A stretch of 64,000 nucleotides of DNA from Polyangia bacterium (lineage in GTDB: Bacteria; Myxococcota_A; Polyangia; Fen-1088), in contig DATATI010000066.1 in the NCBI GenBank assembly GCA_036268875.1, positions 62,001 to 126,000 of the forward strand, written 5' to 3'. The notes beneath the pieces were generated by a model that searched no databases, was not told the DNA's origin, and saw only the letters and a list, made by a program, of their open reading frames with translations. Position 1 is the stretch's first letter, and each line of letters starts with the position of its first letter. This document shows, in pieces, positions 4,930-21,398 of this stretch. The position numbers and the translations under genes were made by a program.

Positions 4930-5004
4930 TTCGAGGTGCCGCGGACAATACAAAATCTTTTGGTCCGGGCGCGGCGACCGACCGTGGGCGGCGGCAGGCC
5001 CCGC

Positions 5005-12144: not shown

Positions 12145-13521
12145 CTAGCCGAGACCGGTCAGGACGCCCGGGAAGCGGGGATCGCCGAAGCCGGTCGACG
12201 AGATCCCGAACATGTTCTGAAAAGCGGCGAAGAGTTTGTTGTGCGGATCGCCGTTGAAATGAACATAGCGCCCGGTCCGCAGGGCGCCGTTGCCCTGCCC
12301 GGCCAGCACGTACGGCAGGTCGCGACGGTCGTGCACGGTCCCGCGCGAAAGCTCGTTGACCCAGAAGACCACCGAACCATCCAGCAGCGTCTGGCCGTCG
12401 GCGTCGGTGACCGCCGCCAGCCGATCAAGTAGCCCGCTGAACTGCTGCGCGTACCAGGTGTGGACCTGCGACAGCGCACCGGCGTTGGTGACATCGTCGT
12501 GCGACATCAGGTGGTGCTCTTGTGTCACCGAAATCTCGGAGTGCACGACCGTGCTCTCGGCCGTCGACCACTGCAGGGTCGCGACGCGGGTGAGATCGCA
12601 GGCCAGCGCCAGCGCCATGATGTCCATCTGGGCCTGGCCGATGCTGGCAAAGTCGCCCACGCACGTCGCCGGCCGCGCGTCCTGCAGGCAACTGTACGGC
12701 TTCAGGCTGACAGTGGGCGCCGTCGGCGTGACGCCCTGGCAGCTTTGCGAGGCGCTGCCCGCGGTGAGCAGCTGCTTTTCCAGCTCGCGGATCGACGTCG
12801 TGTGCGCGTCCAGTTTGGCCTTGTCGCCGGCGCCCACGATGGAGGAGACGCTGGTCAGATCAGCCAGCACCGCGTCCAGGATGGTTCCGCGCCGCTTCTG
12901 CGTGGCCATGATCATCGCCTGCGTGGCCTGGGTGTCGCCGAACAGCGAGGCGAACGCCCGCGACGGATCGTCCTCGGGAATGATCGGATCACTCACCGCC
13001 CGGTAGGACATCTTGGTGACCATCGGCTCAAGGATGGTGCTGGTCGACTGCACCCCCAGCGCCAGCGAGGTGAACCGCTTGCCTGCACCGATCGACTTGG
13101 CGATCACCTGATCGATCGACGGGCCGCCCGCGGTGCCGTCGATGATGTGGTCGGCGCGGCCAAGGCCGCTGGGGCCGATGATCATCGGCATCGCGCTCAG
13201 CATCGTTCCCATCGACAGGTCGTGACCGTTGCTGCCCGGCGTGTTGTACGAGACCTCATTGTTGAGCCCGCGCATGATCAACAGCCGATCGCGGTGGGCG
13301 GCAAGCGGCATCAAGATGGGCGAGAAGGTGAACGCGGTGTCGGCACCGCCCGGCGTCCAGTTGTCCAGGATGGTGCCGTTGGCGCTGAAGAACACGATGA
13401 AGCGCTTGGCGACGCCCGCCGCCCGCGCCCGCCGCGGCTGGGTCATGGCGTCGAGGAACGGCAGGGCGACGGCGATCCCACCGGCCCCGCGCAAAACAGT
13501 ACGCCGGCTGAGCGCCTTCAC
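12145..13521 (-). CDS. DUF1552 family exported protein with Tat-like signal
   Basis: The 458-residue protein begins with a twin-arginine signal (SRRTVLRGAGG) and continues with the pattern of DUF1552 proteins, such as RFIVFFSANGTILDNWTP and ISVTQEHHLMSHD near residue 330. DUF1552 genes regularly sit beside DUF1592 cytochrome-like genes in Planctomycetes and Myxococcota; their role is unknown. The start is GTG at 13521, which overlaps the TGA stop of the preceding gene as GTGA, with GGAGGTGA placed seven bases upstream inside that gene. This coupling shows that the two products are made together and fixes the start. Confidence 0.9.
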   Translation of the reverse strand: MKALSRRTVLRGAGGIAVALPFLDAMTQPRRARAAGVAKRFIVFFSANGTILDNWTPGGADTAFTFSPILMPLAAHRDRLLIMRGLNNEVSYNTPGSNGHDLSMGTMLSAMPMIIGPSGLGRADHIIDGTAGGPSIDQVIAKSIGAGKRFTSLALGVQSTSTILEPMVTKMSYRAVSDPIIPEDDPSRAFASLFGDTQATQAMIMATQKRRGTILDAVLADLTSVSSIVGAGDKAKLDAHTTSIRELEKQLLTAGSASQSCQGVTPTAPTVSLKPYSCLQDARPATCVGDFASIGQAQMDIMALALACDLTRVATLQWSTAESTVVHSEISVTQEHHLMSHDDVTNAGALSQVHTWYAQQFSGLLDRLAAVTDADGQTLLDGSVVFWVNELSRGTVHDRRDLPYVLAGQGNGALRTGRYVHFNGDPHNKLFAAFQNMFGISSTGFGDPRFPGVLTGLG

Positions 13522-15260
13522 GGCGTCACCTCCAGCTTCAAGAAGGCTGGCACTTGGGTCATCGCTACCATCAGATCCACCACCTTCTGACGACTGGTTC
13601 CAAACCCGCTGCCGAGCTGGCTCAACGTGGGCGCGTCCTCGGGCGTCTCGAAGCGTCCGAAGCCGAAGCGGAACAGCTCGCGCACGGCGCAAGCGGAGAC
13701 CTGCGCGCTGCTGGCCAGCTTCTGCGCCAGTTGCACCGCCCCGACGAACGGACCATCGACGTCGGTGCCAGTCAGCTTGCCCGACACATCGATGGCCTGC
13801 CCGCCTTCGGTGTCGCGCCAGCGGCCCATGCCGTCGTAATTTTCGAACGCCAGGCCGATCGGGTCCATGAAGATGTGACAGGCGGCGCACGCCGCCACCG
13901 AATCGTGCTGGGCAAAGCGCTGGCGCGCGGTGGTGTTCGGCGTGATCACCGGCGGCGTGATGTTCACGTTGCTGGGCGGTGGCGGAACGCTGCCGCACAA
14001 CAAATCCTCGAAGATGAACTTGCCGCGATGGACGGGATCCGTTGAATCGGCCTTGGCGAAGGTGGCCATCAGCGCCGGTTGGGTCAGAAGGCCAGCGCGC
14101 TGTTTGGGATCGAGCATCAGCTTGCCGTCAGCAGCGGGCGCCGCCGTTCCATAAAGAGCGGCAATTTCTGGCGTCGCGTAGGTGTACGGCGCCGTCAGCA
14201 ACGTGCCGAGATCGCCCGGGCCGCCGAAGATGGTGTGGGTGACGAACGATTGCGTCTCCTGCAACATCGCCGGGCCCAGCGTCGCCGTGAAGGTGGGAAA
14301 GGCCTTCATGTCCTTTTGCAGGCTGGCGACGTTCACCAGGTGCAGCCATTCGGAGAAGAACTGCGCAATGCGCTCGGTGACCGGGCCACTGGTGGCGCTC
14401 AAGAGGCGGCGGGCCTGCGCGGCGATCTGGTCGGGCGTGCTGAGCTGATCCGCCGCGGCCGCGGTAAAAAGCGCGTCGTCCGGCATCGAACCGATCAGAA
14501 AATAGGATAGCCGCGAAGCGATCTCCCATGACGTCAACGACGCCACGGTCGTGCCCGGCGCCGCGCCCCCCGTGTGCTCGACGCGATAAAGAAACTTCGG
14601 CGAGACCAGGAAAGCCTGCAGGATCATCTGCACGCTGGTCGGGACATCGAAGTCGACGCGGCCCTTGGTATAGACGGCGTCCAGGGCGTCGACCTCTGCC
14701 GCCGCCAGCGGCCGGCGCCAGGCGCGCTGCCCGAAGCGGGTCACGAACATCCGCACGCAAGCATCGCCAGCAGTGGTCGGGTCGCAGCCCATCAATCCGA
14801 CCAGATTCTTGGTGGCGGTCAGCGACAGGGCCTCGGCGGCTCCCAAATACTGTTGCGCCAGGTTGGTCCCGACGTTCTGGGTATCGGCGTTGTTGGTAAA
14901 GCCGTCAGCCAGCGTGTCGGGTTCGAACTGTTGGGCTGGCTGGGTGGTGTCACCCAGGAGATCATGGACAGTGTTGTTGTATTCCACCCGCGACAGGCGG
15001 CGTAACGGTGCCCGTCCCGGCATCAGCGGCAACGCCATCGCCCCGCCCATGCCCGGCGCGCCGCCGCTGCCGCTGCCGTTACCGCTGCCCGAGCCGCCCC
15101 CTGGGCCGCCGGGCATGCCCGCAGCGCCCGTGGTGGTCCCCGGCGTGGCTCTCCCGCCGACCGCACCGGTACAACCCACAACGACGGTGGTGGAGGCAGC
15201 AATCACCCACGAAATGATGAACGTCCCGCGACCCGCCCCCCGAGCGCATGACACTTTCAT
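13518..15260 (-). CDS. DUF1592/DUF1588/DUF1585 cytochrome-like lipoprotein
   Basis: The 580-residue product has a signal peptide ending in a VVVGC lipobox and a Gly/Ser-rich linker to about residue 75. Then come, in order, a DUF1587-like start (LSRVEYNNTVHDLLGD), the helical DUF1595/DUF1592 core, and a DUF1588-like segment with a CxxCH haem motif (ACAACHIFMDPIGLAFENYD near 465). A DUF1585-like C-terminus ends with KLEVTP. Such proteins occur with DUF1552 partners in Planctomycetes and Myxococcota and probably act as exported haem proteins in polymer or carbon breakdown, which is unproven. The last codons carry the ribosome-binding site of the following gene. Confidence 0.9.
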   Translation of the reverse strand: MKVSCARGAGRGTFIISWVIAASTTVVVGCTGAVGGRATPGTTTGAAGMPGGPGGGSGSGNGSGSGGAPGMGGAMALPLMPGRAPLRRLSRVEYNNTVHDLLGDTTQPAQQFEPDTLADGFTNNADTQNVGTNLAQQYLGAAEALSLTATKNLVGLMGCDPTTAGDACVRMFVTRFGQRAWRRPLAAAEVDALDAVYTKGRVDFDVPTSVQMILQAFLVSPKFLYRVEHTGGAAPGTTVASLTSWEIASRLSYFLIGSMPDDALFTAAAADQLSTPDQIAAQARRLLSATSGPVTERIAQFFSEWLHLVNVASLQKDMKAFPTFTATLGPAMLQETQSFVTHTIFGGPGDLGTLLTAPYTYATPEIAALYGTAAPAADGKLMLDPKQRAGLLTQPALMATFAKADSTDPVHRGKFIFEDLLCGSVPPPPSNVNITPPVITPNTTARQRFAQHDSVAACAACHIFMDPIGLAFENYDGMGRWRDTEGGQAIDVSGKLTGTDVDGPFVGAVQLAQKLASSAQVSACAVRELFRFGFGRFETPEDAPTLSQLGSGFGTSRQKVVDLMVAMTQVPAFLKLEVTP

Positions 15261-16400: not shown

Positions 16401-18107
16401 TTACTTGTTGGCCACCGATGGGCTCGTTGACGCGAAGGTGACAGTCCCATTGATCTCGCGGCGTCGAGCAAGCTCCAGATCCTCGAGCCGGGCCAGCGCC
16501 TTGGGAATGTCCGCGCGAAGTATCGTCACCTCGACGGCGATCGCCTCTTCGGACGCTTCGCCGAGCCGCCGCAGAGCCGTCAAGACCGTCATCTCCGAAT
16601 CGATCAGGCCCGCGACCACGCCGGACGAGTGACCATCGGTCTGCCGGCGCGTGGGAACGCCGGTCAATATGCCTTCATATTCCGCGAGGGCCACCCCCAA
16701 GCGCACGCCGGACGACGTGATGGTATAGCGCCGCATCTCCTGGCTATAGCCACTGCGCCGCATCTTCACGATGACGAGGACCTTCTCGAGGCGGCCTTGC
16801 AGCTCGACGTAGCGAAGAAAGATGATGTTCTGCGAAAGGTAGGAGATGGCGTGAGGGCTGAAGCTCAGGCTGGAGAAACTTTCCGTCACCTCCACCATCA
16901 TCATGATCGTGACGCCGCCCCCGGTGAGCCCGCTTATCATGCGATAGAGCGACTCCTGGAAATCTTCCCGGAAGGTCGGAGCCAGCGCGATCTCGAGCCC
17001 GTTCAGCGAATCGATCACCAGCCGCGTGGCCCCGCTTTCGGCCACCGTCTGCTGAACTTCTTGCAGGATCTCGTCGGCCGAAAGATCTAGCGGCCGCAGA
17101 TAGATGAGCCGCAGATCGCCGTCGCGCACGAACTTCTCCAGATCGAAGCCGATGTCTTTGGCGCGCGCCACGTAATCTTGCGGGTGCTCCTCGAAGACAG
17201 CCAACACGGCCCGCTCGCCTTTTTGGATACCCTCGGTCACGAAATGCGTTCCAAGGACGGTCTTTCCGGTTCCTGAGGGTCCGCTCAGCAGGACGGCGTC
17301 TCCGGCCGGTATCCCTCCGCCCAGCATCTCGTCGAGCGCCGCGACGCCCATGCCCAGTCGAACGCCGGGTGGCGGGCGCCTGTCGCCGGCCGGGCGCGAT
17401 TGGATCCGAGGGAAGACCTGAAGCCCTTCGTCGCTGATCCGAAACGTATGAAGGCCAGGCATGGGAGCGGTGCCGCGCACCTTCATCGCCTGTAACTTCC
17501 GAACCACCGAATTCCGATCGCGGCTCTGAGCCATCCAGATGATGCCGTCGGCGATGGTGAAGACCGGGTTGTCCTGCATCTCTGACTCCTGGTATTCGCC
17601 TACCAGGAAGGTGGTCGCTTGCCAGCTGGTCAGGTGCAACGCCAGGCGCTGCAGGAAACCTTGAAGATCCATGTGGCCCTCCGGCGAGCCGGCCTGACCG
17701 CGCAGCATGGTCCGGAACGAGTCGACCACGACGATGCCTGGATTGATCTGCTCGACCTCCGAAACGATAACCTCAAGGACCTTGCTGAGATCACGATCGA
17801 GAACCGTCTGGCTGAGATCCACGAACCGGATGAACGTCCCGACTTTTTCTGGGTCAAAGAAGGCCATCTGCTGCTGGTAGCGCAGCATCTTCAGCGCTGG
17901 TTCCCCGAGGACAGTGAAGTAGATGGCCGGGCGCTCGAGAGAAGCGTTCGCGAACATCAACTGGTGCACCAGGGTGGTCTTGCCCGCGCCGGGCGCCCCT
18001 GCCACCAGGTTGAAGGAGTACTCCGGCAAGCCTCCGCCAAGTATTTCGTCCAGACCGGGGATTCCCGTCGCGAGCTTCTGAATTTCCGGACCCTTCCGCT
18101 TACTCAT
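16401..18107 (-). CDS. Two-domain KaiC-like ATPase
   Basis: The 568-residue product has two RecA-type domains with a C-terminal extension, as in KaiC. Walker A motifs are GAPGAGKTT (about residue 37) and GPSGTGKTV (about 273). In the first domain the usual catalytic Glu-Glu pair reads Gly-Glu (VLGEP); in the second it is intact (VFEEHP). In the second domain the region equivalent to the KaiC phosphosites reads HAISYLSQNII, so the serine is kept and the neighbouring threonine is tyrosine. The last 100 residues resemble a winged-helix segment. Its ATG overlaps the end of a 155-residue unknown gene. No KaiA or KaiB gene is present. A role in signalling rather than a clock is likely. Confidence 0.9.
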   Translation of the reverse strand: MSKRKGPEIQKLATGIPGLDEILGGGLPEYSFNLVAGAPGAGKTTLVHQLMFANASLERPAIYFTVLGEPALKMLRYQQQMAFFDPEKVGTFIRFVDLSQTVLDRDLSKVLEVIVSEVEQINPGIVVVDSFRTMLRGQAGSPEGHMDLQGFLQRLALHLTSWQATTFLVGEYQESEMQDNPVFTIADGIIWMAQSRDRNSVVRKLQAMKVRGTAPMPGLHTFRISDEGLQVFPRIQSRPAGDRRPPPGVRLGMGVAALDEMLGGGIPAGDAVLLSGPSGTGKTVLGTHFVTEGIQKGERAVLAVFEEHPQDYVARAKDIGFDLEKFVRDGDLRLIYLRPLDLSADEILQEVQQTVAESGATRLVIDSLNGLEIALAPTFREDFQESLYRMISGLTGGGVTIMMMVEVTESFSSLSFSPHAISYLSQNIIFLRYVELQGRLEKVLVIVKMRRSGYSQEMRRYTITSSGVRLGVALAEYEGILTGVPTRRQTDGHSSGVVAGLIDSEMTVLTALRRLGEASEEAIAVEVTILRADIPKALARLEDLELARRREINGTVTFASTSPSVANK

Positions 18108-18567
18108 CCTTGCTCTCCTCGGCGTCGGTCGTGCTCAAATCCAATTCTGGCCAGCCTCGGGCCAGTGCCCGCCTGGTCAGGTCCTCTCCGATGAAACTGA
18201 ACAGTAAGGAGAAGACCTGCGCCAGCAAGGCGGCAGCGGCGGCCAAGATTTCCGCTGGCCGGTGATCATGAGGGCCTGCGACCAGGAACCTGGCCACGTT
18301 TGGTGGGCTGGATGGCTCAAGATCGAGAAAATCGAATCGCAGGCGGGTCATGAACACCGAGCGCTTTACCAGGGCTTCGAAACCCAAATCGCCGATGACA
18401 GGCGTCATCAGCGATGAGACTCGGTACAAGGTTCGGTTCGTCGTGTGTAGAAAATCATGAGCTGCGCCGTCATTCGACGGATCATTCCTGCTTGACCCCG
18501 CTTCATGGTCAAGCAGACGGCGCGCCAGCTGGTTCGCTGCGCGCGACGCGGTCTTGGGTATCGGCAC
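18100..18567 (-). CDS. Unknown protein translationally linked to the KaiC-like gene
   Basis: The 155-residue product is not one I recognise. It has a basic N-terminus, a central part with TRLRFDFLDLE, a strongly hydrophobic amphipathic stretch ILAAAAALLAQVFSLLFSFI near residue 110, and an acidic tail ending in DAEESKDE. Its stop at 18100 overlaps the KaiC-like start by 8 bases, so the two are very likely co-translated. The gene starts 124 bases from the divergently transcribed histidine kinase, so both transcripts are probably controlled from that gap. It may regulate or partner the KaiC-like ATPase. Confidence 0.78.
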   Translation of the reverse strand: MPIPKTASRAANQLARRLLDHEAGSSRNDPSNDGAAHDFLHTTNRTLYRVSSLMTPVIGDLGFEALVKRSVFMTRLRFDFLDLEPSSPPNVARFLVAGPHDHRPAEILAAAAALLAQVFSLLFSFIGEDLTRRALARGWPELDLSTTDAEESKDE

Positions 18568-18691
18568 CCGGACAACATAGCGGAAATTGACGTTTGCTCC
18601 CGGATCTTCTCTTCAATTCTTGGCGTGTGAAGGGCCACATATATTCCTGCCCCTCGCAAGATGGCAGAAGCGATGCCATCTTGTTCACGTA

Positions 18692-20035
18692 ATGGCGGTT
18701 CCAGATCTCAAGCAAGCGAACGAGCAGCTGTTGCTTGCCGCCATTCGCGAACAGGAGGACGCCGAGGCCGCGCGGCGGCTGGCGGCGGAGCTCGAGGCAG
18801 CGATAGCCCGAGAGAAAATTCTCGCCAGCGCCAGCATGGCCTTGATGTCCTCTTTCGACTACCGGGAGACGATCTTCAAGGTTCCGAGCTTGCTGGTCCC
18901 GACGATCTCCGACTGGTGCGCGATCGAGATCGTCGGTCCCGAAGGTGAGCTCGACCATCTGGCCGCAGCTCATCTGGCTGAACGAAACGCGGCCATGGGG
19001 CCGGTCACCGGGCGCGAGATGGACATGATGGTTTCTGGGGGCGTCATCGCTGAACGGGTCATGGCAAGTCAGAAGCCCGAGCTGCGCATCGGCTGCTCGG
19101 AGGCCGCTGAGAACGCGCCGCCTGGTCGACCGAAGACTCCCTTCAAGATCCACTCGTGCTTGTGCGTTCCGGTGGTCGCTCGGAATGAGGTCCTTGCGCT
19201 CATCTGGCTGGCGACGTGGGCGACGGGGCGCGAACTTGGTCCGGCCGAGGTGCGCTTTGGCGAGGAGCTGAGTCGCCGAGCCGCCACCGCTTTGGAAAAC
19301 TCCGGTCTCTATCACGCCACCAAGCTCGCCGTGCGGATGCGTGACGACGTCCTCGCGACCGTGGCTCACGATCTGATGAATCCGCTGACGGCCATTCGAC
19401 TGAGCGCGGCCTCGTTGCTGCTGCCGAAGCCCGGAACGCCTGTCAACGAGGAGACCTTCCGGCTGGCGGGGCGCATCGAGCGATCGGTCGAAAGCATTTC
19501 ATATCTAGTGGAACAACTAACGGAGATGGCCAGCGTCCATACCGGACAATTAAAGCTGCACGCGACGCAGGTCGATGCAGCGGCCATTGTCGAATCGGCT
19601 TGCGACATAGCGGATCCTCTTGCGGCGGCGAAGACGCAGCAGCTCCTGCGCGACCTGCCTAGCCGGGAAGTCGTGGTCCAATGTGACGCCGAGCGCGTCC
19701 GCCGTTTGCTTTCGAACCTCATCGGGAATTCGATCAAGTTCACGCCTCCTGGAGGATCGATCACGGTCTCCGCAAGGCAAGTCGACAGTCACGTGGAGAT
19801 TTCAGTCGAAGATGACGGCATCGGTATTCCCGAAACCGATCGCGACACGATCTTCGGGCCGTACGGACGCGGCTCCGCGACGGATCAGCCGGGCAAGGGC
19901 TTGGGCCTTTACATCGCGCGCGGTATAGCCGAGGCCCATGGCGGTACGCTCGCGTTCGACTCGGCGCGGGTGGCGGGCAGCCGATTCGTGCTGACTTTGC
20001 CGATAAGTCAGAACCCGCCGGCATCGATTCCGTAA
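18692..20035 (+). CDS. GAF-domain sensor histidine kinase
   Basis: The 447-residue cytosolic kinase has an N-terminal coiled-coil stretch (residues 5-45), a GAF-like sensor domain at about 50-210, and a kinase core. The H box is VAHDLMNPLTAIRLS near 235, the N box NLIGNSIKFTPPGG near 350, and the glycine-rich boxes are DDGIGIP and GKGLGLYIA. It has no transmembrane helix and no receiver domain. I chose the ATG at 18692, at the start of the coiled coil; the frame opens at 18587 in an unlikely sequence. It is divergent from the KaiC-like pair and no response regulator lies nearby, so its partner is unknown. Confidence 0.9.
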   Translation: MAVPDLKQANEQLLLAAIREQEDAEAARRLAAELEAAIAREKILASASMALMSSFDYRETIFKVPSLLVPTISDWCAIEIVGPEGELDHLAAAHLAERNAAMGPVTGREMDMMVSGGVIAERVMASQKPELRIGCSEAAENAPPGRPKTPFKIHSCLCVPVVARNEVLALIWLATWATGRELGPAEVRFGEELSRRAATALENSGLYHATKLAVRMRDDVLATVAHDLMNPLTAIRLSAASLLLPKPGTPVNEETFRLAGRIERSVESISYLVEQLTEMASVHTGQLKLHATQVDAAAIVESACDIADPLAAAKTQQLLRDLPSREVVVQCDAERVRRLLSNLIGNSIKFTPPGGSITVSARQVDSHVEISVEDDGIGIPETDRDTIFGPYGRGSATDQPGKGLGLYIARGIAEAHGGTLAFDSARVAGSRFVLTLPISQNPPASIP

Positions 20036-20165
20036 ACGGCGTCGCTCGTCGCTGCCCCTGGCCAAGACCGGGTAGCGCTGCCACTTGTCGCTTCCCGGCC
20101 CGATGCACATAGGCCTTCCAGGTCGAACTTTGCAACGGCAATCCTGGAACCAAAGGAGACACCTC

Positions 20166-20618
20166 ATGAGCAACCGTTTTCTGAAGATTGTTCTGTTCGG
20201 GTTTTTGATGGCGCCCCTCGCGGCCAGCGCGCAAAGCGGCAGCGGCTCGGGCAGCAGCGGCTCGGGATCGGCGAACTCGGGTTCGATGGGATCGACCGGG
20301 TCCGGATCGCCGTCCGGTGCGGCGGGCGCCACGGATTCGTCCGGCTCGACAAGCACGACCCGCCGCCGCGCGAACGGGACGAACAGCGGTTCCAGCACAG
20401 GCAGCATGAACAACGGAAGCAGCTCTGGCTCCAGCGGCTCCAGCGGCGCGGGCGGTCACCCGAGCGGGAGCGACACCATGGGTGCGTCGGGCACCGGCTC
20501 GTCTTCGATGGGCAGCTCCGGTGGTACCGCGACCGGCAGCGGCACCAAAGCAAAACGCAAGACGCGCAGCAAAAATGGCACCAATTCCGGCGGCGGGTCC
20601 GGATCGACGAACCAGTGA
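20166..20618 (+). CDS. Secreted Ser/Gly-rich low-complexity protein
   Basis: The 150-residue product begins with a clear signal peptide cleaved after ASAQ. The rest is almost entirely Ser, Gly and Thr with short basic patches (TTRRRANGTNS and KAKRKTRSKNGTNSG). AGGAG sits 7 bases upstream of the ATG. The composition suggests a flexible surface or matrix protein, but no family can be assigned and low complexity prevents a functional call. It stands 130 bases after the histidine kinase gene. Confidence 0.7.
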   Translation: MSNRFLKIVLFGFLMAPLAASAQSGSGSGSSGSGSANSGSMGSTGSGSPSGAAGATDSSGSTSTTRRRANGTNSGSSTGSMNNGSSSGSSGSSGAGGHPSGSDTMGASGTGSSSMGSSGGTATGSGTKAKRKTRSKNGTNSGGGSGSTNQ

Positions 20619-20652
20619 AGTCACACACCAGACGGCCAACGCTCGCCCCTCT

Positions 20653-21042
20653 TCACGAGGCTGCCGAACCCCGGTTGCGGATCGCCCAGAGGGCCAGATT
20701 GACCGCCGCCCACGCGACGGTCGCCGTGACGAGCACGACGGCCGGCGGCCAAGCCCAAGCGCTTGTCCACACAACCAGCGCGAACACGATGAGACCTATG
20801 CTGCCGAGACGGCCACCGCGGGCGTCTTCAACCGCCTGCTGACGTCCGTCGTGTTCCTTTATGAGGGTGAGGCTCGCTGGCAAAATGGCCGGGAAGCCGA
20901 GAAAGAGGCCGCCAATCGTCGGGCCGAAGCGCTTGGTGATCAACATGGCCGCAACAGTCACCGCGCCGCCGAAAATGAATCGTATCAAGTACTCCCATGG
21001 TTTTGGCTTTCCAAGCCCGGCACAATCGAGCTTTGGCGTCAC
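20653..21042 (-). CDS. DUF3147 family membrane protein (downstream copy)
   Basis: The 129-residue protein has about four hydrophobic helices and the segments FGGAVTVAAMLITKRFGP and GGLFLGFPAILPASLTLI, which match DUF3147 proteins. The start is GTG at 21042, which overlaps the TGA of the preceding paralogue as GTGA. Longer in-frame starts up to 21183 would lie inside that gene. The function of the family is unknown. Together with the upstream copy it may form a two-subunit membrane protein. Confidence 0.82.
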   Translation of the reverse strand: MTPKLDCAGLGKPKPWEYLIRFIFGGAVTVAAMLITKRFGPTIGGLFLGFPAILPASLTLIKEHDGRQQAVEDARGGRLGSIGLIVFALVVWTSAWAWPPAVVLVTATVAWAAVNLALWAIRNRGSAAS

Positions 21043-21398
21043 TGCAGCGCTCTTACAGCCTTTGTTGCGGCCCATCCACCGAATGCGATCGCGAACCAAC
21101 CCAGCCATGCCGCGGTTGCAGAAAGCCAGACCGGCCATCGGGTTCGTCTGACCCCTGTCACGCATAGGGCTGCATAGGCCCACAGTGCCAGTGCGCCAAT
21201 GACCATAGAGCGCGCGAGCACCGCGACCTCGCCACGCCCTTGCCTGTTGTACGTCAATGCCAACGTGGCGATCGCCACCGACGGAGCGGCGCCGAAAATG
21301 CCGGAGAATGTCTTAGGCGTCCATATTTCCCCAATGACGGCGAACGCCGAGACAATAAATCCGCCGACCAGAAATTTGATTAACAATTCTCGCAGCAA
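21039..21398 (-). CDS. DUF3147 family membrane protein (upstream copy)
   Basis: The 119-residue protein has four predicted helices; LLIKFLVGGFIVSAFAVIGE and IFGAAPSVAIATLALTYN fit the DUF3147 pattern. It is a diverged paralogue of the next gene and is coupled to it by a GTGA overlap. Such tandem pairs suggest hetero-oligomers, as in small multidrug or ion channels, but no function is known. Confidence 0.82.
   Translation of the reverse strand: MLRELLIKFLVGGFIVSAFAVIGEIWTPKTFSGIFGAAPSVAIATLALTYNRQGRGEVAVLARSMVIGALALWAYAALCVTGVRRTRWPVWLSATAAWLGWFAIAFGGWAATKAVRALQ

Follow-up and report, generated by a model that had tools for sequence, protein, structure and literature searches.

The window analysed here is a 64,000-nucleotide (nt) stretch of the genome of a Polyangia bacterium (contig DATATI010000066.1, positions 62,001 to 126,000; assembly GCA_036268875.1). 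The locus under study holds a gene for a KaiC-like ATPase, a gene for a small protein that lies directly 5' of it and overlaps its start, and a histidine kinase gene that diverges from this pair (Table 1). The three open reading frames (ORFs), the overlap and the divergent gap all lie where the original prediction had placed them. It had also named, as a check, whether the genes are neighbours in other genomes; we ran this check, and the small protein and this KaiC subgroup are found side by side essentially wherever they occur.

Table 1. Features of the KaiC locus, numbered along the window
Feature	Position	Strand	Description
KaiC-like ATPase gene	16401-18107	-	ATG start, 568 aa, two PF06745 domains
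Winged-helix domain, C-terminal in the KaiC-like protein	16428-16610	-	About residues 500-560
Overlap of small-gene stop and KaiC start	18100-18107	-	8 nt, ATGAGTAA; translational coupling inferred
Small helical protein gene	18100-18567	-	GTG start, 155 aa; partner of the KaiC subgroup, family nameless
Divergent intergenic region		18568-18691		124 nt, between the small-KaiC pair and the kinase
Perfect inverted repeat	18657-18683		CAAGATGGCA-N7-TGCCATCTTG; 10 bp arms, 7-nt spacer, just 5' of the kinase start
Soluble GAF-HisKA-HATPase_c histidine kinase gene	18692-20035	+	447 aa, best start ATG 18692

The small ORF is real, because orthologues are found at this position in the nearest relative, in other phyla and beside all twelve subgroup KaiCs of the Chloroflexota genomes described below; this conservation across loci led us to reject a chance ORF, the weakness that the original prediction had itself pointed out. 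In the nearest relative, the small-protein orthologue was matched at phmmer E 3e-22. Among the closest orthologues of KaiC, that of G387 is 71% identical. A search with the small protein alone gave weak matches in Myxococcota, and a search for related loci gained two loci in Chloroflexota, one in Gemmatimonadales and the G387 locus. In every such orthologue with upstream sequence, the small-family ORF ends at the KaiC start (the one at L046 was spotted by eye first and confirmed by profile afterwards). The plasmid collection contributed four further loci, among them Paracoccus liaowanqingii (KaiC 55% identical) and Caballeronia sp. SBC1 and SBC2 (49-50%). Their small ORFs are annotated as 'hypothetical protein' and match a profile built without them at E 1e-23 to 1e-26. 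Small homologues directly 5' of KaiC are thus present in Myxococcota, Chloroflexota, Gemmatimonadota and on Paracoccus and Caballeronia plasmids, and the arrangement is common to at least four bacterial phyla.

The spacing of the two genes is also tight. They overlap by 4 nt in most loci; the window shares its 8-nt overlap with L058, and the few exceptions are -11, +4 and +6. In no core locus whose KaiC start can be read does the gap exceed 6 nt. At L065 and L056, the KaiC frame is broken into two overlapping frames; these are possibly decayed copies or sequencing errors.

In an independent and unbiased sample of 301 Chloroflexota genomes, the KaiC scores split into 12 at E <=1e-138, which belong to the subgroup, and a remainder at >=1e-89. 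A small-family ORF lies just 5' of 12/12 subgroup KaiCs and of one of 19 more distant KaiCs (Fisher p 9e-8). These 19 are the distant KaiCs that the search reported as loci; each was viewed with 1.5 kb of flank, where a strongly diverged small protein could escape detection. Three of the 12 subgroup loci (L132-L134) were outside the profile-building set; the match at L134 is weak and partial (E 1.6e-4), and with that locus scored as absent the p value is 1.6e-6. A second KaiC-like gene of the same genome as the window (L052, G000:C23:75000-88782) adjoins a histidine kinase gene and has no small-family ORF.

The small gene and KaiC seem to have moved as one unit. Distances in the KaiC tree and in the small-protein tree correlate over 21 core pairs (r 0.77, Mantel p 2e-4, the minimum attainable at 5000 permutations), difference of phylum correlates little with either (r 0.16 and 0.14), and insertion sequences flank the plasmid copies; together, these suggest transfer of the pair. 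The window KaiC clusters with those of Chloroflexota, not with other Myxococcota.

The window KaiC matches PF06745 twice (E 1.3e-70), with Walker A motifs GAPGAGKT and GPSGTGKT, and it shares the two-ring architecture of solved KaiCs (E 1e-53 to 7e-61). It scores below the circadian equivalog cut-offs, with 242.8 against 408 bits for NF006799 and 170.8 against 546.25 bits for TIGR02655. In the first ring (CI), the Walker A motif is intact and the Glu-Glu motif is replaced by TVLGEP, as read from a sequence alignment and not from a structure; the subgroup has TVLGEP-xxKMLRYQQQ where solved KaiCs read FEE. In the second ring (CII), the window KaiC and most relatives keep FEE, and some have FEK, FER or FEQ. 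The phosphosite at the S431/T432 positions is Ser-Tyr in the window; across the subgroup, the first position is mostly Ser (Ala in a few) and the second almost always Tyr or Phe. As the CI Glu pair is lost and the CII pair is kept, these motifs suggest that ATP turnover or phosphate transfer would be left to the second ring only.

Neither KaiA (PF07688) nor KaiB (PF07689) has a match in the whole genome (assembly 97% complete), in a search whose Synechococcus elongatus control exceeded the cut-off, in agreement with the original prediction. The lack of KaiA and KaiB, together with the altered CI ring, points to a non-clock character, and its view of a non-clock KaiC module with the small protein as a candidate regulator seems reasonable.

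One feature that it had missed is the winged helix of KaiC. The window KaiC belongs to the half or so of the subgroup that carries an additional C-terminal domain, ~65 residues long, whose core AF2 models as helix-helix-helix-hairpin (H-H-H-E-E, pLDDT ~90). The best Foldseek matches to this domain were all winged-helix regulators of MarR/ArsR/TFE type (E 8e-4, probability 1.00), and the match to the Pfam family TrmB stayed below its cut-off (E 0.0016). From the modelled fold, this domain may bind DNA. The inverted repeat that precedes the kinase gene is possibly an operator or a hairpin. It is present as a single copy in the genome at <=3 mismatches and has no counterpart in the corresponding region of L044, and on these grounds we rejected it as a conserved operator and kept it as a candidate only.

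For the small family, the 32 members searched gave no significant match in Pfam, NCBIfam or PDB (best E 0.013, 0.018 and 0.23, respectively). The AF2 model of the window protein, built on an alignment of five sequences (the window and L058-L061), has five helices and a short hairpin, with a mean pLDDT of 78 and a pTM of 0.76. Foldseek returned nothing at E <1 for this model, and its likenesses to HEPN, MarR or RNase III were dismissed as all weak (E 1 or worse); the best VIA score (Z 5.0) stood amid helical-bundle noise, and the VIA-align rows were set aside as coiled-coil and helical-bundle noise. A KaiB-like identity is unsupported, Pfam giving no match even at E 10. The conserved positions are G59, G62, L66, L121, L122, G127 and W139, which are structural, plus R69, and no His, Asp or Cys is conserved across the 32 homologues. 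Thus, a histidine phosphotransfer domain was rejected for want of a conserved phospho-acceptor His, and a phosphotransfer, redox or metal-binding protein for want of any conserved His, Asp or Cys. Because conservation falls on Gly, Leu and one Arg instead, the protein is best read as a putative binding subunit rather than an enzyme or a phosphotransfer domain.

Some loci depart from the simple pair. Two small paralogues flank KaiC in several Chloroflexota; at L186, L187 and L118 these are divergent small-family genes, one before and one after the subgroup KaiC. In one homologue, a receiver domain and a small-family domain are fused in a single ORF (L163/L183 of G422, P0004; L086, 1462-2181, minus strand). 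The small family is undescribed in the literature searched, of which our coverage was partial.

The window kinase matches the Pfam families GAF, HisKA and HATPase_c, and its H, N and G box motifs were read by eye. Its N-terminal region is the GAF domain, with no match to the KaiB-like domain of SasA, and against the PRK09303 model it covers only model positions 148-379 (135.9 bits, cut-off 342). No receiver-domain protein was found within the 64-kb window. Among the 27 subgroup loci with enough flank, a kinase is the next or next-but-one gene in 21; of the remaining six, two have a GGDEF (diguanylate cyclase) gene, a more distant kinase is seen in one, and three show no kinase. The sensor domain varies by locus (GAF, PAS, HWE, GGDEF or none recognised). 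At only one other locus (L044/L058) does an orthologous GAF kinase diverge from the pair as it does in the window; at the rest, the kinase is of PAS, HWE, hybrid or GGDEF-HisKA type and is usually encoded downstream, in the same orientation. On the Caballeronia sp. SBC2 plasmid, a gene annotated as a diguanylate cyclase (L063:7572-9149) encodes GGDEF followed by HisKA and HATPase_c. Since a kinase is near KaiC in most loci, with sensor types that differ and an orthologue only in L044, the kinase strongly tends to accompany the pair but is no fixed third component. The original proposal of a three-gene unit is supported for the small-KaiC pair, which is conserved, and in part for the kinase.

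Elsewhere in the window, genes for DUF1552 (HXXSHH) and DUF1587/1592/1595/1588/1585 (PSD) proteins adjoin at 12145-15260 (minus strand). At 20085-21398, a Gly/Ser-rich ORF of 177 codons is followed by two small membrane-like ORFs, possibly paired, one with a DUF3147 match.

Taken together, we think that the locus probably encodes a KaiC signalling module independent of KaiB and KaiA, in which a dedicated small subunit couples KaiC to two-component signalling. A subgroup KaiC, without the CI Glu pair but with that of CII and with Ser followed by Tyr or Phe, would be made together with the small helical subunit; because the two genes overlap, the proteins would be synthesised in matched amounts and would form a complex. 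The small protein may dock on the KaiC ring and signal the nucleotide state or phosphorylation of the ring to the neighbouring histidine kinase. It would then stand where KaiB and SasA-type adaptors stand in the cyanobacterial clock, and would couple KaiC to the particular kinase or cyclase of each locus. In that clock, the pace is set by the slow ATPase of the CI ring; here, only the second ring would turn over ATP or transfer phosphate. The KaiCs with a winged helix, that of the window included, may in addition bind DNA and act on the divergent promoter.

Several observations weigh against this account. The model of the small protein is middling in confidence and its predicted fold has no match. 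About half of the subgroup has no winged helix, and therefore DNA binding would not be a common function of these KaiCs. Moreover, the kinases are not orthologous between loci and these genomes encode many kinases, so that the partnership with KaiC is argued from neighbourhood alone.

A different role for the small protein was considered, chiefly as an adaptor or inhibitor of histidine kinases, with KaiC as an accessory ATPase that loads, removes or sequesters it and not as the hub. Probable distant relatives of the small protein lie directly 5' of a GAF histidine kinase gene in ~15 Chloroflexota genomes (L167-L182, L188-L193), with no KaiC detected nearby, and in the L086 homologue the small-family domain follows a receiver domain within one 240-aa ORF. 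However, the homology of this kinase-linked group to the family is modest (hhalign profile-profile E 3.5e-4, probability 37%; first link E 1.3e-4), and in the subgroup of the window it is KaiC that is the strict partner, whereas the kinase varies or is missing. We regard this role as rather unlikely, and a small subunit dedicated to KaiC as the better reading of the same genes.

Alternatively, the conserved unit could be the pair only, and the GAF kinase of the window an unrelated neighbour with its own promoter. The kinase is divergent and not co-transcribed with the pair, its arrangement recurs at a single other locus, and no kinase lies near the subgroup KaiCs of L110, L116 and L185. Against this, a kinase stays near in 21/27 loci although its orientation and sensor type change, and the same tendency is published for other KaiC groups (PMC3164672), which makes an unrelated neighbour improbable. 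Even less probable is that the module keeps time, as an hourglass or an oscillator, with the small protein standing in for KaiB or KaiA: the S431 position holds a phosphorylatable Ser, the CII Glu pair is intact and the same paper suggests that KaiC-kinase pairs lacking KaiB may act as an hourglass, but the CI Glu-Glu motif is gone throughout the subgroup and the T432 position is Tyr or Phe.

Beyond the signalling module itself, we tentatively suggest that the small family could form a third class of regulators of KaiC, related to neither KaiA nor KaiB, and define a widely transferred non-clock switch in which the first ring would be catalytically dead and KaiC could itself be a DNA-binding output. 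This wider proposal is possible, though we would not yet expect it to hold in full.

Compared with known systems, the locus is similar to the cyanobacterial KaiABC-SasA clock in having a two-ring KaiC and in combining this ATPase with a small partner and a histidine kinase. It differs in that the genome has no KaiA or KaiB, the CI Glu pair is lost and Tyr is at T432; besides, the small partner is unrelated by sequence and the kinase has no KaiB-like domain of the SasA type.

KaiC genes beside a histidine kinase or GGDEF gene without kaiB, those with SY phosphosites included, are described in the sections of PMC3164672 at hand, with Ramlibacter tataouinensis Rta_04330/Rta_04340 and the 'dark-blue' and 'black' KaiC contexts as examples. 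The window is in line with them in its kaiC near a histidine kinase, the lack of kaiB and the SY-type phosphosite. In those sections, a co-translated small partner is not described (the supplement legend lists 'hypothetical protein' among the neighbours), and neither CI Glu loss nor a winged helix is mentioned, both of which are present in the window KaiC. The dark-blue kinases have a KaiB/SasA-like N-terminus there, whereas the kinases here have GAF, PAS or other domains, and most of the published kinases lie downstream of kaiC, whereas that of the window is divergent, 124 nt from the small gene.

Archaeal KaiC-like ATPases have been proposed as signalling hubs (Makarova et al. 2017, as summarised in a portion of PMC5847659). 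According to that citing summary, on which this comparison is based, these are likewise KaiC-like ATPases, some of them degenerate, that are fused to two-component parts or encoded near them; our module is bacterial, with one dedicated small family and a defined KaiC subgroup. In Myxococcota, the accessible part of PMC11832031 reports several KaiC copies, none with kaiA, few with kaiB and many with one or no phosphosite, and states that their regulators are 'yet to be identified'. The window KaiC is likewise from Myxococcota and without kaiA, and no small partner is named in that part of the source.

Most KaiCs have no KaiA, often no KaiB, and many have no phosphosites, and their regulation is the wider question to which these loci belong. 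A strictly linked partner family offers a cloneable target, including in Caballeronia sp. SBC1 and SBC2 and in Paracoccus liaowanqingii. The KaiC-kinase arrangement was already known, and the small partner family appears to be an undescribed addition to it.

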